NCBI GenBank assembly: GCA_020048055.1
Contig: JAIFNA010000007.1
Coordinates: forward strand, 1-64,000
Origin: Arcobacter sp.
GTDB taxonomy: Bacteria; Campylobacterota; Campylobacteria; Campylobacterales; Arcobacteraceae
Direction: 5' to 3'
DNA length: 64,000 bases
Shown here: one piece after another, positions 32,828 through 39,365 of the stretch
Position numbering within the stretch: position 1 is the stretch's first letter
How the letters are laid out: each line of letters opens with the position of its first letter
Made by a program: the position numbers and the translations under genes
Notes under the pieces: generated by a model
The model's input: the letters and a program-made list of their open reading frames with translations, nothing else
Databases searched by the model: none
What the model was told of the DNA's origin: nothing

Positions 32828-35506
32828 ATGACTATAAATCCAAAGGATATATCTGAAAGAATCCCACAAGTATTGTATTATAAAAAGATTTTAGGCGATT
32901 TGGGACAAAATTGGAATACTTTAAATTTGCTAAATCAAGTAAATGATAGTGGCGAAAGTATGGAAAAAACCCAGAGTGAATTCCATTTTCTTAGTGAAGA
33001 GTTGTTGTTACACTTAACTAATGAGAGTTTAAAACAACTTTCAAATCAAATTAATTCAAAGTCTCAAGTTGTTATTGATATTTTGGTTAGAAATTTATTT
33101 GAACGTACTGCTGATATTGGTTTCTTAGCTACAGATGATTCGATAAGGGAATTTATTAATGAATATACTACATATTATCATGAAATTCAATCTTATAGTC
33201 AGTTTAATGAAAGCCACGATGGTTGTCAAAAATGCCCAGAACCTTTTAAGAGCGAATGTGAATCAAATAATAATAGTTTAATTTTAAATTCAATAAAAGA
33301 TATTTTATGTACTAAAAATAATCCAACAAGACAACGGGCTTTAAAGCAAAAACTTGACTTGCTAAGTAAAACAATAAAACAAAGGTTTAGGGAGTATGTT
33401 GAAAAATATTCTGTTTATTTTGATGTTATTGTCACTGATCCATCCGGAAATGTTTTAGCCTCATTAGATGAATCAAATAAAGTTACAAAAAGTACCGACA
33501 AAATTATTAATGAATCTTTAAATACAAAAGATGAATTTGTTGAATATTATGGGATAAGCGATTTTTCAAAAAATAATCAGCCGTTATTGTTGTATGGCTT
33601 TAAGATTTATGAAACAAATGAGAAAATTGGTAACCCAATAGGTGTTTTAATATTATGCTTTAAATTTGAAGATGAAATGGAAGGGATATTTTCTTTTTTA
33701 AATAGTGGGACACAGAATTTTACGATGGGAGTATTGGATAATACCAATTCTTTGATTTCTACTAGTAATAAATTTATTTTTCCTATTGGAACTAAAGTAA
33801 AATCATTAGTAAGCAAAGATGTTGAACTTATAGAATATGGCGGTAAAAAATATCTAGCTAAAATTTCTCAAACAAGAGGTTATCAAGAATTTTATGGGCT
33901 TGGATGGAGAGGTTGTTGTTTTGTGTCTTTGGAAGATGGATTTCATGATACTCATTCAAATATTTTGCATTCAATAGACAATAAAATTTTAGATTCAGTT
34001 ATGAGTTCCCCCTCATTATTTTCGAAAGAATTGCAAGATATTCCAATGAAAGCTAAAAAAATACAAGACGATTTAAGTAGAACTGTTTGGAATGGCAGCC
34101 TAAAACAGCAAACACTGATTGCAAAAAAACTTCTTAGTCAGGTAGCTTCAACAGGACAAAAAACAAATTTGATATTTAATGATTCGATAGAATCACTTCA
34201 TGAAACAGTTTTAAACACAATGCTCGGAGTAGTTACTTTTGAAGCTGCTCTTGCTATTGATATTATGGATAGAAATTTGTACGAAAGGGCTAATGATTGT
34301 AGATGGTGGGCATTAACTGACAAATTTAAAACTATTTTGTCTAAAGAAAATATAACACATGACGATAAAAAAATTTTGCACAATATTTTGCACAATATCA
34401 ACAATCTTTATACTGTCTATGTGAATATTTTTTTATATGACTGTAATGGAACTATCATTTCGGTTTCAAATGATGAGTATAGTGAATTTGTTGGGTTTGA
34501 ACTAAGTAGTAATGCTGTTAAAAATACTCTTCAAAATAGGGATTCGCAAAAATATTTTGTAACAAACTTTGAATCAACAGAGCTATATAGAAAAGGGTAT
34601 ACATATATTTATAATGCATCAATAACAAATCAAGCTCAAGATAAAAATATTGGCGGAATAGGGATTGTATTTGATGCTTCAGAACAGTTTAAAACTATTT
34701 TGGAAGATATATTACCACAAAGAAATTCAAAAAACTATTTTTCAGTTTTTGCTGATCGTTCAAAAAAAGTAATATCAACATCGAAAGAGCAAATTATGAT
34801 TGATTCTTATTTGGACATCCCGAGTGATTTTTTTAATCTTGAAAAAGGTCAAAGTTATAGCTCGATAGTTAAATACGAAGGGTGTTACTATGCTGTTGGT
34901 TCGCATGCTTCAAAAGGTTATCGGGAGTACAAAAATAAAGACGGATATATTAATGAAGTTATAGCGATTTCATTTTCAATGTTAAGTTGCGAAAATGAAT
35001 CTGGCGATCTATTGCAAAAAAAAGAAAGTCATTTTTCTACTGCACTTTATCCAAAAACTACGCAATCAATAGTTGAAGTCGGTACTTTCTTTTTGGGCAA
35101 CTACTGGTACGGTTTTGAAACACAAAATCTTGATGGTGTAGTTAGTATGGATGAAGTTCAAAGGGATACTAACTCTAAAATTTTTATTGGTAGGATTTTT
35201 TATAAAAATCAATTTGTGGAGATTGTAAATTTGCACAACTATTTAAATATTACCGATTCAAGTGATAATCAAGTTATTATTTTTAAAGATAGTGAATCTA
35301 AATTAGTTGGATTAATAATTGATTTTCTTGGACCAATTTGTGAAATACCACAAGACATGATTGGCGATCCAAAAGGAATCTTTACATCAAGAGAGAGTTT
35401 TGTAGAGATGATTGCAAAACCACCTCAAGGGGTTACAAATAAAATCTTATCAATAATAAACCCAAATAAATTAATTGAAACTTTGAGTAAATTAGTTGAC
35501 TACTAA
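32828..35506 (+). CDS. Large soluble protein: two Cache-like sensor units plus CheW domain
   Basis: The 892-residue protein has no signal peptide or membrane helix. Two related units are visible. Unit 1 has RNLFERTADIGFLATDD (about 89-105), then a strand pair FDVIVTDPSGNVLAS. Unit 2 has DRNLYERANDCRWWALTD (about 481-498), then VNIFLYDCNGTIISVSN. Each looks like a Cache/PAS-fold sensor. Residues about 745-850 fit CheW (FFLGNYWYGFE, FIGRIFYKNQFVEIVNLHNYL, VGLIIDFLGPICEIP). It probably couples an intracellular signal to CheA arrays. Unit 1 also has a C-x-x-C-x7-C group (133-144). The gene has its own leader and a terminator. Confidence 0.7.
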   Translation: MTINPKDISERIPQVLYYKKILGDLGQNWNTLNLLNQVNDSGESMEKTQSEFHFLSEELLLHLTNESLKQLSNQINSKSQVVIDILVRNLFERTADIGFLATDDSIREFINEYTTYYHEIQSYSQFNESHDGCQKCPEPFKSECESNNNSLILNSIKDILCTKNNPTRQRALKQKLDLLSKTIKQRFREYVEKYSVYFDVIVTDPSGNVLASLDESNKVTKSTDKIINESLNTKDEFVEYYGISDFSKNNQPLLLYGFKIYETNEKIGNPIGVLILCFKFEDEMEGIFSFLNSGTQNFTMGVLDNTNSLISTSNKFIFPIGTKVKSLVSKDVELIEYGGKKYLAKISQTRGYQEFYGLGWRGCCFVSLEDGFHDTHSNILHSIDNKILDSVMSSPSLFSKELQDIPMKAKKIQDDLSRTVWNGSLKQQTLIAKKLLSQVASTGQKTNLIFNDSIESLHETVLNTMLGVVTFEAALAIDIMDRNLYERANDCRWWALTDKFKTILSKENITHDDKKILHNILHNINNLYTVYVNIFLYDCNGTIISVSNDEYSEFVGFELSSNAVKNTLQNRDSQKYFVTNFESTELYRKGYTYIYNASITNQAQDKNIGGIGIVFDASEQFKTILEDILPQRNSKNYFSVFADRSKKVISTSKEQIMIDSYLDIPSDFFNLEKGQSYSSIVKYEGCYYAVGSHASKGYREYKNKDGYINEVIAISFSMLSCENESGDLLQKKESHFSTALYPKTTQSIVEVGTFFLGNYWYGFETQNLDGVVSMDEVQRDTNSKIFIGRIFYKNQFVEIVNLHNYLNITDSSDNQVIIFKDSESKLVGLIIDFLGPICEIPQDMIGDPKGIFTSRESFVEMIAKPPQGVTNKILSIINPNKLIETLSKLVDY

Positions 35507-36335: not shown

Positions 36336-36423
36336 ACAATCTCCTAATTTAAAGTATGAGATTATAGTTAAATATTATGTAATATCTGATAATGTGTCAA
36401 TTCTATGATTTTAAAAAGGTTTT

Positions 36424-38400
36424 ATGGTGAGAATTTTATTTGTAAATATTTTTGTATTGTTGTTTTTTATCGGCTGTGGTGGTGGTAGTTCTACAACTTC
36501 AACTACCGGAGGTGGTGGTTCTAGCAACAATACGCCCACTATCAAAAAAGGTATTTTTGTTGATTCACCGGCTTATGGTCTTTATTATAAAACTGCAACA
36601 CAAAGTGGATACACGGATGATAAAGGTGAGTTTACCTACATAGATGGTGAAACCATAGAATTTAAATTGGGTAATTTATCTTTTGGAAGTGTAAGAGGAG
36701 GTGAGTTAATCACCCCCTATACCATTTCAAATGACACTAATAGTGATACTCCAAGTAATAATACAATCAATATGGCTATTTTGCTTCAAAGTTTTGATAG
36801 CAATAGAAGTGATAATATTTTGGATATGAGACAGCTAAAAGATGTTAATTTTAGTGACATAACATTAAATGCAACCCCAGAAGATTTAGGTTTAAAAGTC
36901 ACAACTTTTCTTAGTAATAATAGCAATATTGGCGACACTAATTTTAGAACAAGCATTTCGGCTGATGATGCAAAAACTAATCTTAGAGATTATGTGGTTT
37001 TTTCAGATAAATCACTTGCCGATCCAAAGCGTTCAAATCAATGGCATATTGATAGCTTAGGATTGTCAAATATTTACGGAAAAAGTAATGCAAAAACTTA
37101 TATTCAAATTGTCGACGATGGTTTTGATAGTAACCATGAGGATTTAAAAGCGAATTATGATGCAAATAGGTCGTGGAATTTTGGAACAAACCAAAATGAT
37201 CCAACATCAGCTTCAGATGAGTTAAGCCATGGTACTAAAGTTGCTGGAATAATTGGAGCTAGGGGATTTAATGGTATAGGAATTAGGGGGATAGTCCCTT
37301 ATGGTAAAATTTCAGGTTATACATATTTGGGTGAAGATATAAATGGAGCTAGTATGGGTGGAATAGAGAATCTTGAAAAAGCTTGGTTTAGTGGTGATAA
37401 TGCTAATGATATATTAGTTAGCAATAATAGCTGGGGATATTCTATTGAATCATATTATGACAATGAAGATATTTTAGAAAAAGGTGCCACGCTGTTAAGA
37501 AACGGCAAGGGTAGAGTGTATGTTTTTGCTGCTGGAAATGATAGAGTTGATATAGATACTCCAACTAAAAAATTATATGGAAATTCAAATCTTTCCAACA
37601 CTGCTAATGGACCTTATTCTATTGCTGTTGCTGGGGTTGGATATAATGGTAAATTTGCTTCATACTCTTCACCTGGATCAAATATTTTAGTTAGTGGATA
37701 TACTAATGACATAACAACAACAGATAAAAAAAATGGCTATACAAATTATTTTAATGGAACAAGTGCCTCAGCACCAATGGTTAGTGGAATTTTGGGACTT
37801 GTTCTTGAAAATTGTCCAGATTTAACTTACCGAGATGTTAAGTATCTCCTTGCAACTACTTCAAAAAGAACAGATACAACCAATTCAACTTGGGTAAAAA
37901 ATTATGCTAATTTATGGCATAGCACAGATTATGGATATGGAATAATTGATGGTGAAAAAATTATTAATAGTTGCAAAAGTAACTACACTCTTTTGCCAGA
38001 TGAGATACAAGTAGAAAGTGAAGCTTTTATTGAAGATGTTTGGAATCCTACTATTGTTAATGATACAGCCAGTGTAGTTTTGGATTTAAATATTTCAGAT
38101 AATAACATCACAAAAACAGAGTGGATTGGCGTCTATATTGATTTCATTCATCATCGTCCAGCTGATTTACAAATTCTTTTAACATCACCAAAAGGGACTA
38201 AAACTGAATTGTTAAATAGTGAAAATGCACTTGATGAGAGTGAAGGATACTATCAAAAATATGTTAGTTTTAGACTAGCAAGTCAAGCGTTTTATAATGA
38301 AAAGCCAAAAGGGATATGGAAATTGGAATTTAAAGATAATAGATTAAATGGCAAAAACGGTGACATAATATATGCGAAGCTTGAAGTTAGGGGACACTAA
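36424..38400 (+). CDS. Kexin-like S8 serine protease lipoprotein with P domain
   Basis: The 658-residue protein has a lipobox (FFIGC, Cys18), then a Gly/Ser/Thr-rich spacer and a small beta domain (about 41-100, FVDSPAYGLYY and GEFTYIDGETIEFKLG). The S8 catalytic domain runs from about 203 to 520: Asp231 in IVDDGFD, His269 in LSHGTKVAG, oxyanion Asn372 in FAAGND and Ser447 in NGTSASAP. The VDDG form is that of kexin/furin. A P/homoB domain (about 530-657) ends IWKLEFKDNRLNGKNGDI. No I9-type propeptide is visible before the catalytic domain; the next gene, 1 base on, looks like one. Confidence 0.88.
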   Translation: MVRILFVNIFVLLFFIGCGGGSSTTSTTGGGGSSNNTPTIKKGIFVDSPAYGLYYKTATQSGYTDDKGEFTYIDGETIEFKLGNLSFGSVRGGELITPYTISNDTNSDTPSNNTINMAILLQSFDSNRSDNILDMRQLKDVNFSDITLNATPEDLGLKVTTFLSNNSNIGDTNFRTSISADDAKTNLRDYVVFSDKSLADPKRSNQWHIDSLGLSNIYGKSNAKTYIQIVDDGFDSNHEDLKANYDANRSWNFGTNQNDPTSASDELSHGTKVAGIIGARGFNGIGIRGIVPYGKISGYTYLGEDINGASMGGIENLEKAWFSGDNANDILVSNNSWGYSIESYYDNEDILEKGATLLRNGKGRVYVFAAGNDRVDIDTPTKKLYGNSNLSNTANGPYSIAVAGVGYNGKFASYSSPGSNILVSGYTNDITTTDKKNGYTNYFNGTSASAPMVSGILGLVLENCPDLTYRDVKYLLATTSKRTDTTNSTWVKNYANLWHSTDYGYGIIDGEKIINSCKSNYTLLPDEIQVESEAFIEDVWNPTIVNDTASVVLDLNISDNNITKTEWIGVYIDFIHHRPADLQILLTSPKGTKTELLNSENALDESEGYYQKYVSFRLASQAFYNEKPKGIWKLEFKDNRLNGKNGDIIYAKLEVRGH

Positions 38401-38401
38401 A

Positions 38402-38776
38402 ATGGTAAAAATAATATTGCTAGTTATGGTTTTTATGTTAAATCTATTTGCTACAAATATCACTATCAAAGATAAAGGGCGACTTGAAACACTTGATGTT
38501 GTTAGAAATGGAATTTCAAATGATGTTAGATATCGATATGGTGAGTATAAGTTTTATAACAATTCATTTCTTTTGGTTAAATTTAATCAGATAACACCAG
38601 AACTTATATCTTCATTTGAAGATAAATTTGGATTAAAATTGGTTCAAATTTTGGTAATTGGATATTATGTTTATCAATTTGATGGAGATATAAATGAAAA
38701 AGTTTCGTTAATATCAAAAGAGGAAAATGTCCTGAGTGTAAAACCAAATTGGATTTCAAAACCAAATAAATATTAA
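38402..38776 (+). CDS. Small exported protein resembling a detached subtilase propeptide (I9-like)
   Basis: The 124-residue protein has a signal peptide (MVKIILLVMVFMLNLFA). I chose the ATG at 38402, just after the protease stop, over an ATG 30 bases upstream inside the protease gene; its ribosome site is GGGGACACTAAA. Residues about 58-122 show the beta-alpha-beta-beta-alpha-beta order of subtilase propeptides: FLLVKFN, ITPELISSFEDKFG, LKLVQILVIGYYVYQF, a short helix, and NVLSVKPNWI (compare the V-x-x-VEPN end of prodomains). I infer a folding helper or inhibitor of the neighbouring protease, acting in trans. Confidence 0.6.
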   Translation: MVKIILLVMVFMLNLFATNITIKDKGRLETLDVVRNGISNDVRYRYGEYKFYNNSFLLVKFNQITPELISSFEDKFGLKLVQILVIGYYVYQFDGDINEKVSLISKEENVLSVKPNWISKPNKY

Positions 38777-38792
38777 ATATTTAGGGTAAATT

Positions 38793-39365
38793 ATGAGATG
38801 TGTAACTTGTGAAAAATTATCTTTTTATATGATTTGCAAATCTTGTCAGGCGAGGTTTTTTACACCTGTATTTAATAAAAGAGAGATTAGTAAAAACTTT
38901 TTTGTTTATAGTTTTTATGAATATGATGTGGTTAAAGATTTATTAAATAGTAAATATCAATTTTACGGAGATAGAATATATAATATTTTAGCAAAGTTAT
39001 CTTTTGCAAAATTTGCTTTAAATTTTGATTTTATAGATAGTGTTGATGTGGTTGCCATTGATGATCACACAAGACACGATTTTTCCCATACAGCAATATT
39101 GGCAAAACATCTAAAGTCAAAACTTTTAAACTATAAAATTGATATTTTAAAAGCAAACAATCAAATAAAATACGCAGGTAAAACACTAAAATTTAGAAAA
39201 GAAAATCCAAGAGATTTTGTCTACAAAGGGTTAAAAAATAGGATTGTCATCCTAGTAGATGACATAATTACAACAGGTACAACGATACTTGAAGCAAAAA
39301 AAGTTTTGGAAAAAAATGGCTGTAAAGTCCTTTTTGCTTTAACGCTAAGCGATGCAAAATTTTGA
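38793..39365 (+). CDS. ComF-family phosphoribosyltransferase-like protein (CtsW-like)
   Basis: The 190-residue protein starts with a zinc-finger-like pair of CxxC motifs (CVTC and CKSC) and ends with a type I phosphoribosyltransferase core that has the PRPP motif VILVDDIITTGTT. ComF proteins act in the cytoplasm in natural transformation; in Campylobacter the equivalent is CtsW. It follows the propeptide-like gene by 16 bases. No other competence gene is adjacent, so the role is inferred from the family. Confidence 0.85.
   Translation: MRCVTCEKLSFYMICKSCQARFFTPVFNKREISKNFFVYSFYEYDVVKDLLNSKYQFYGDRIYNILAKLSFAKFALNFDFIDSVDVVAIDDHTRHDFSHTAILAKHLKSKLLNYKIDILKANNQIKYAGKTLKFRKENPRDFVYKGLKNRIVILVDDIITTGTTILEAKKVLEKNGCKVLFALTLSDAKF

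Follow-up and report, generated by a model that had tools for sequence, protein, structure and literature searches.

Subtilases are the textbook case of folding with the help of an intramolecular chaperone. The locus described here lies in a window of 64,000 nucleotides (the whole stretch of DNA analysed, positions 1 to 64,000 of contig JAIFNA010000007.1 from Arcobacter sp., assembly GCA_020048055.1) and raises the question of how a subtilase that carries no propeptide of its own is folded and held in check, and whether the small exported protein encoded immediately after it serves that role in trans. A precedent exists in Aeromonas sobria, where the kexin-like protease ASP lacks a propeptide and ORF2, an external chaperone and temporary inhibitor, is encoded just downstream (PMC5638518).

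The protease gene (36424..38400, forward strand) starts with an ATG at 36424, ends with a TAA stop at 38398-38400 and encodes a 658-residue kexin/furin-like subtilase lipoprotein without a cis propeptide, an assignment based on Pfam, PDB sequence matches and fold matches. It is the sole S8 protease that we found in the genome. The signal peptide (36424..36477) ends in the lipobox FIGC, recognized by inspection and by a lipobox scan; Cys18 is predicted to be lipidated, making the enzyme a predicted membrane-anchored lipoprotein. Pfam places Peptidase_S8 at residues 224-492 (37093..37899; E 4.7e-40), with the triad D231/H269/S447, also located in the AF2 model, showing no variation across our alignments, and a P domain at residues 566-647 (38119..38364; PF01483, E 1.1e-13). 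Sequence searches of the PDB returned furin, ASP (3hjr, 3wqb) and Kex2 as the closest solved structures, and the same three proteins were fold matches over the catalytic and P domains of an AF2 model built on a 30-sequence alignment (pLDDT 80). The gene boundaries, triad, P domain and lipobox described in an earlier note on this DNA are thereby confirmed by sequence, Pfam and alignments. Because the aspartates of the furin S1 pocket apparently have no counterpart in this protease and the partner ends in Tyr, we tentatively consider cleavage after paired basic residues unlikely.

The region ahead of the catalytic domain was scrutinized for a propeptide. No Pfam family matched residues 1-199, and a cis propeptide looked for in residues 100-200 with both Pfam and the AF2 model was not found. 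The model instead contains a small all-beta domain of six short strands (residues 40-91; 36541..36696, forward strand), distinct from the propeptide fold, followed by helices (112-165) and disorder (167-196), so that the earlier description of the N-terminus as a lipobox plus an unrelated small beta domain is upheld. NCBIfam NF037974 matched residues 48-132 (8.3e-07, far under its cut-off), and at low score the beta domain appears related to one common to SslE/AcfD-type lipoproteins. Among relatives, the catalytic domain of the L055 protease begins directly after the lipobox, with the N-terminal region absent, and in others this region is swapped for TSP3, cadherin or PKD domains. A Pfam prodomain was detected in none of the 30 aligned proteases (0/30), whereas the positive control, the P-domain protease L170 from a Chloroflexaceae genome, returned the cis S8 pro-domain PF16470 at 7.7e-15 and has no adjoining partner. 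A PF16470 scan of the whole class gave zero matches, but the control genomes likewise gave none. The window protease, tested in these ways, has no propeptide of its own. Two P-domain subtilases, L136 (Verrucomicrobia) and L170 (Chloroflexi), have N-termini resembling cis prodomains and no partner alongside; Pfam confirms the prodomain for L170 only, and both are usable as cis counterparts.

The partner gene (38402..38776, forward strand) is separated from the protease stop by one base, 38401, and encodes an exported protein of 124 residues, as the earlier note had described. Sequence, Pfam, AF2 and Foldseek together suggest an external propeptide of the ORF2 type, and this is the sole partner-like gene that we found in the genome. 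Close to its 3' end the protease gene contains a Shine-Dalgarno-like AGGGGA (38389..38394, forward strand), spaced 7 nt from the partner ATG; promoter and terminator scans of the locus gave chance-level results. The signal peptide, predicted by eye at residues 1-17 (38402..38452, forward strand), coincides with a modelled helix at 2-13. In the AF2 model, derived from 29 aligned homologues (pLDDT 82, core >90), residues 56-115 (38567..38746, forward strand; pLDDT mostly >90) form a beta-alpha-beta-beta-alpha-beta body comprising strand 56-61, helix 66-76, strands 79-83 and 89-92, helix 97-105 and strand 110-115, with an N-terminal hairpin before it and a short tail after it. The propeptide-like strand-helix order that had been proposed for the C-terminal part is upheld by this model.

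Foldseek ranked 3wqb_B, ORF2 bound to ASP, as the top PDB match of the partner model (prob 0.99, E 0.055), followed by furin-bound PC1/3 prodomains (prob 1.00), pro-subtilisin E, a prosubtilisin complex and fervidolysin, the last being the fold named in the earlier note. The E-values are weak, 0.055 being the best, with probabilities of 0.99-1.00; weak E-values are usual for so short a fold, so we rely more on the ranking and on the probabilities. The sole Pfam match of the window partner is Fervidolysin_NPro-like (PF22148; E 0.014, 16.2 bits against a gathering cut-off of 21), and that cut-off is exceeded by L176, L181 and a Stenotrophomonas partner. The Pfam family ORF_2_N (PF18492), which takes its name from ORF2, matched 8 of the 29 partner homologues (best 5.9e-06), with all individually viewed scores under the gathering cut-off, and gave no match to the window partner itself. 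Sequence searches of the PDB, whether made with the partner itself or with either of two partner profiles, failed to bring up ORF2; what they returned instead (haemagglutinin, neurotoxin E, carbonate dehydratase and choline kinase) was dismissed as chance. Since these searches yielded chance matches only, the link between the partner and ORF2 rests on the fold and Pfam evidence, and at the level of the predicted structure the subtilase-propeptide fold is borne out.

The partner ends in a seven-residue tail after W117 (38753..38773, forward strand), terminating in SKPNKY. When homologues were compared, the tail beyond the W117 column was 7 residues long in 28 of 29 sequences, a constancy that may be slightly favoured by how the alignment treats sequence ends; in the same 29 sequences the part preceding the core varied from 29 to 100 residues. 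Such constancy is as expected if the partner C-terminus fits a pocket, and it is consistent with a tail located at the catalytic centre.

Scanning 397 genomes of the Campylobacterota class, we found a P domain in 33 of them, and an exported protein of 97-171 aa adjoins nearly every P-domain subtilase at the loci recovered, at an intergenic distance mostly between -4 and +18 bases. A second, independent scan, overlapping the first in that some loci come from the same genomes, found the partner adjacent in 37 of 41 scorable Campylobacterota proteases; the four lacking it (L101, L102, L104 and L115) all belong to one Sulfurovum-like clade. In two genomes of this clade, a partner-like gene sits beside soxZ with no protease adjoining (L083:3694-4077 and L084:3997-4380), and the P-domain protease of these genomes is encoded at another place, next to a SurA-like gene (L062, L065), possibly forming an unlinked pair. 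Outside the class, profile searches detected partners in Desulfobotulus, Bdellovibrio, Burkholderiaceae, a gammaproteobacterium and Hydrogenovibrio. An exported protein of 180-225 aa also occupies the partner position in Xanthomonas, Stenotrophomonas, Luteibacter, Lysobacter and Pigmentiphaga, as judged by position and signal peptide only, with the PF22148 match as an additional criterion for Stenotrophomonas.

In a blind test, a profile of the 29 partners was run over the 397 genomes with proteases ignored. It hit 44 places, 31 of them training members or their duplicates and 13 new. At 10 of the 13, the gene immediately downstream encodes a lipoprotein subtilase that has neither a P domain nor a visible cis propeptide; the remaining three hits score poorly (2.6e-4 to 3.3e-4) and are unconvincing. 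Given this result and the near-universal adjacency in the 397-genome scan, the pairing exceeds chance. The conserved gene pair that the earlier note had suggested seeking in Campylobacterota is thus present, and its view of the arrangement as unusual in bacteria does not hold within this class. A second subtype, represented by L175-L184 (e.g. L176:3093-4557) in nine Campylobacterota genomes, places the partner first and a lipoprotein subtilase without a P domain next. This partner-first, P-domain-less form is apparently undescribed so far, and a search of the literature available to us for trans-propeptides in Campylobacterota found nothing. The L177 and L182 proteases of this subtype seem to possess the N-terminal beta domain of the window protease.

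Several individual loci show rearranged or interrupted forms of the unit. L054 and L055, from one genome, encode proteases of 489 aa that are identical where compared, each with the partner upstream and a one-base overlap; they are two copies of one unit in which the gene order is reversed. L082:2431-4742 (G035) has an in-frame TAA within the protease P domain beside an intact partner gene, and its protease is a decaying or misassembled copy. At L132:6667-8478 (Xanthomonas arboricola), proteases and partners form a tandem array in which one protease begins with an apparent partner-protein signal peptide, suggesting recombination between protease and partner genes.

The two genes are also co-inherited, and their trees mirror each other. 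Across 27 pairs, partner-tree and catalytic-domain-tree distances are correlated (r = 0.727), a value reached by 12 of 1536 permutations in which swaps were confined to pairs of one genome and species history was thereby held fixed. At the window locus, an insertion of ~2.4 kb between mscS and comF (36388..38790, approximate ends) contains exactly the two genes, and in four other genomes of the genus (L188-L191) mscS and comF are directly adjacent, ~55 bp apart in the clearest case. These empty sites show the gain or loss of exactly the protease and its partner. The closest relatives of the pair are found in Sulfurimonas (52-53% protease identity): the same bicistron is present in two genomes of that genus, flanked there on one side by a transglutaminase-like gene and on the other by a glutamate dehydrogenase-like gene. 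In view of the empty mscS-comF sites and this different context, the pair behaves as a single transferable unit. As the flanks at 36380-36424 and 38777-38793 indicate, the insertion parts comF from its ancestral promoter-like region, and comF expression may consequently rely on transcription running through from the protease and partner genes. Elsewhere in the window, the 892-aa product of 32828-35506 ends in a CheW domain; the long part before it is possibly Cache-like and has no obvious membrane segments.

We consider it highly probable that protease and partner genes constitute one bicistronic unit, an external-propeptide protease system of the ASP/ORF2 type, in which the partner would act in trans as both folding helper and inhibitor. 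In outline, both proteins would be exported through their own signal peptides, as read from their sequences, and the protease is predicted to be kept at the membrane as a lipoprotein. From the behaviour of ASP and ORF2, we infer that the partner binds the catalytic domain in trans and templates its folding, and that its free C-terminal tail would occupy the active-site cleft much as a bound product does, with Tyr124 predicted at P1, temporarily holding the protease inactive. Active enzyme would be obtained once the partner is released or degraded. The one-base gap further suggests that overlapping translation signals may cause both proteins to be made together. Counted against this explanation are the weak Foldseek E-values, the lack of a PF18492 match and the sub-cut-off PF22148 match of the partner, the failure of sequence profiles to retrieve ORF2 and the partner-less Sulfurovum-like proteases. 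Neither of the two findings that the earlier note had named as refuting its reading was made, as the partner does match the propeptide fold and protease residues 100-200 yielded no cis propeptide. The folding-helper or inhibitor role advanced in that note stands as the best explanation, with the qualification that the arrangement is less novel than thought, ASP/ORF2 being the same (PMC5638518).

The best-surviving alternative, which we regard as unlikely, is that the partner is a dedicated inhibitor that protects the periplasm, the protease folding alone. Stand-alone propeptide-like inhibitors of subtilases do exist: POIA1 bound to subtilisin (1v5i) is one, Plasmodium SUB1 has another (PMC6993865), and mirolase occurs with the inhibitor potempin C (8ehe), both PDB entries being fold matches of the protease. 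The constant length of the partner tail would fit inhibition. However, as all 30 aligned proteases lack a cis propeptide, their folding must depend on something else, and ORF2, the one clear precedent with the same gene order, serves maturation as well as inhibition (PMC5638518).

Far less probable is an unrecognized cis prodomain in protease residues 100-198, with the partner as an accessory subunit like PrcB for dentilisin PrtP. Dentilisin is indeed a lipoprotein subtilase whose PrtP requires the small lipoprotein PrcB for expression (PMC8167434), and the catalytic region of the window protease has a weak match to denti_PrtP (NCBIfam; 43.8 bits, with the cut-off of 300 not reached). Yet the model shows helices and disorder at residues 112-196, with no strand-helix-strand arrangement, Pfam found no prodomain, and the region is replaced or missing in relatives; PrtP, moreover, has its own propeptide (residues 19-158), and PrcB homologues are confined to oral treponemes (PMC8167434). 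A chance neighbourhood, in which the partner would be some unrelated exported protein of small size with a common ferredoxin-like fold, draws on the commonness of that fold and the weak sequence matches and is the least probable reading by far, already refuted by conservation: the blind profile result, the mirrored trees, the two-gene insertion and a pairing kept across many families and phyla.

Returning to the external-propeptide reading, its mechanism is already known from ASP/ORF2, and what is new in the window pair is the phylum and the membrane anchor. More novelty lies in the wider spread of such pairs and in the second subtype. ASP is regarded as one of very few subtilases without an intramolecular chaperone, and a subtilase survey listed AspA as one of two without a propeptide (PMC9549277). 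Taken jointly, our observations make it reasonably likely that separate propeptides are the rule for P-domain subtilases of Campylobacterota and for those of several further lineages of proteobacterial type (Xanthomonadaceae, Desulfobotulus, Bdellovibrio and Burkholderiales), with L175-L184 as a second subtype, and that this two-gene way of making a protease is widespread and mobile. External propeptides across a whole class, varied in gene order, linkage and domains and accompanied by cis relatives, offer natural test material for propeptide action in trans, for the matching of cognate pairs that coexist in one cell and for how the cis and trans forms interconvert.

Among known systems, POIA1 and the SUB1 inhibitor resemble the window partner in presenting the propeptide fold as a separate subtilase-acting protein (PMC6993865 for the SUB1 inhibitor). 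They differ in not being members of co-encoded pairs. Their target proteases also carry cis propeptides. The PrcB-PrcA-PrtP system of Treponema denticola shares a membrane-anchored subtilase that needs a small co-encoded lipoprotein, whereas PrtP retains its propeptide, PrcB has no homologues elsewhere and the gene order is different (PMC8167434). The fervidolysin prodomain (PF22148) is alike in fold and gives a weak profile match, but it acts in cis there and is a separate gene here, with the window partner under the family cut-off. Furin and Kex2 share the protease architecture and the prodomain fold (PF16470); their prodomain is in cis, and the S1-pocket aspartates of furin appear absent from the window protease.

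The closest known system is ASP/ORF2. ORF2 is needed for ASP maturation, inhibits ASP with an IC50 of 84 nM and touches its catalytic residue with the C-terminus, and a PSI-BLAST survey found the arrangement in Vibrio, Shewanella, Chromobacterium and Pseudoalteromonas besides Aeromonas (PMC5638518). The window pair differs in several respects: ASP is secreted, whereas the window protease is predicted to be a lipoprotein and carries an additional beta domain at its N-terminus; the C-terminal residue is Lys in ORF2 and Tyr in the window partner; fold-alignment identity is low (partner 16%, protease 26%); and the phylum is another. In both systems, nonetheless, a kexin-like protease with catalytic and P domains and no N-terminal propeptide is followed by an immediately 3' gene for a small exported propeptide-fold protein with an N-terminal extension and a C-terminal tail.
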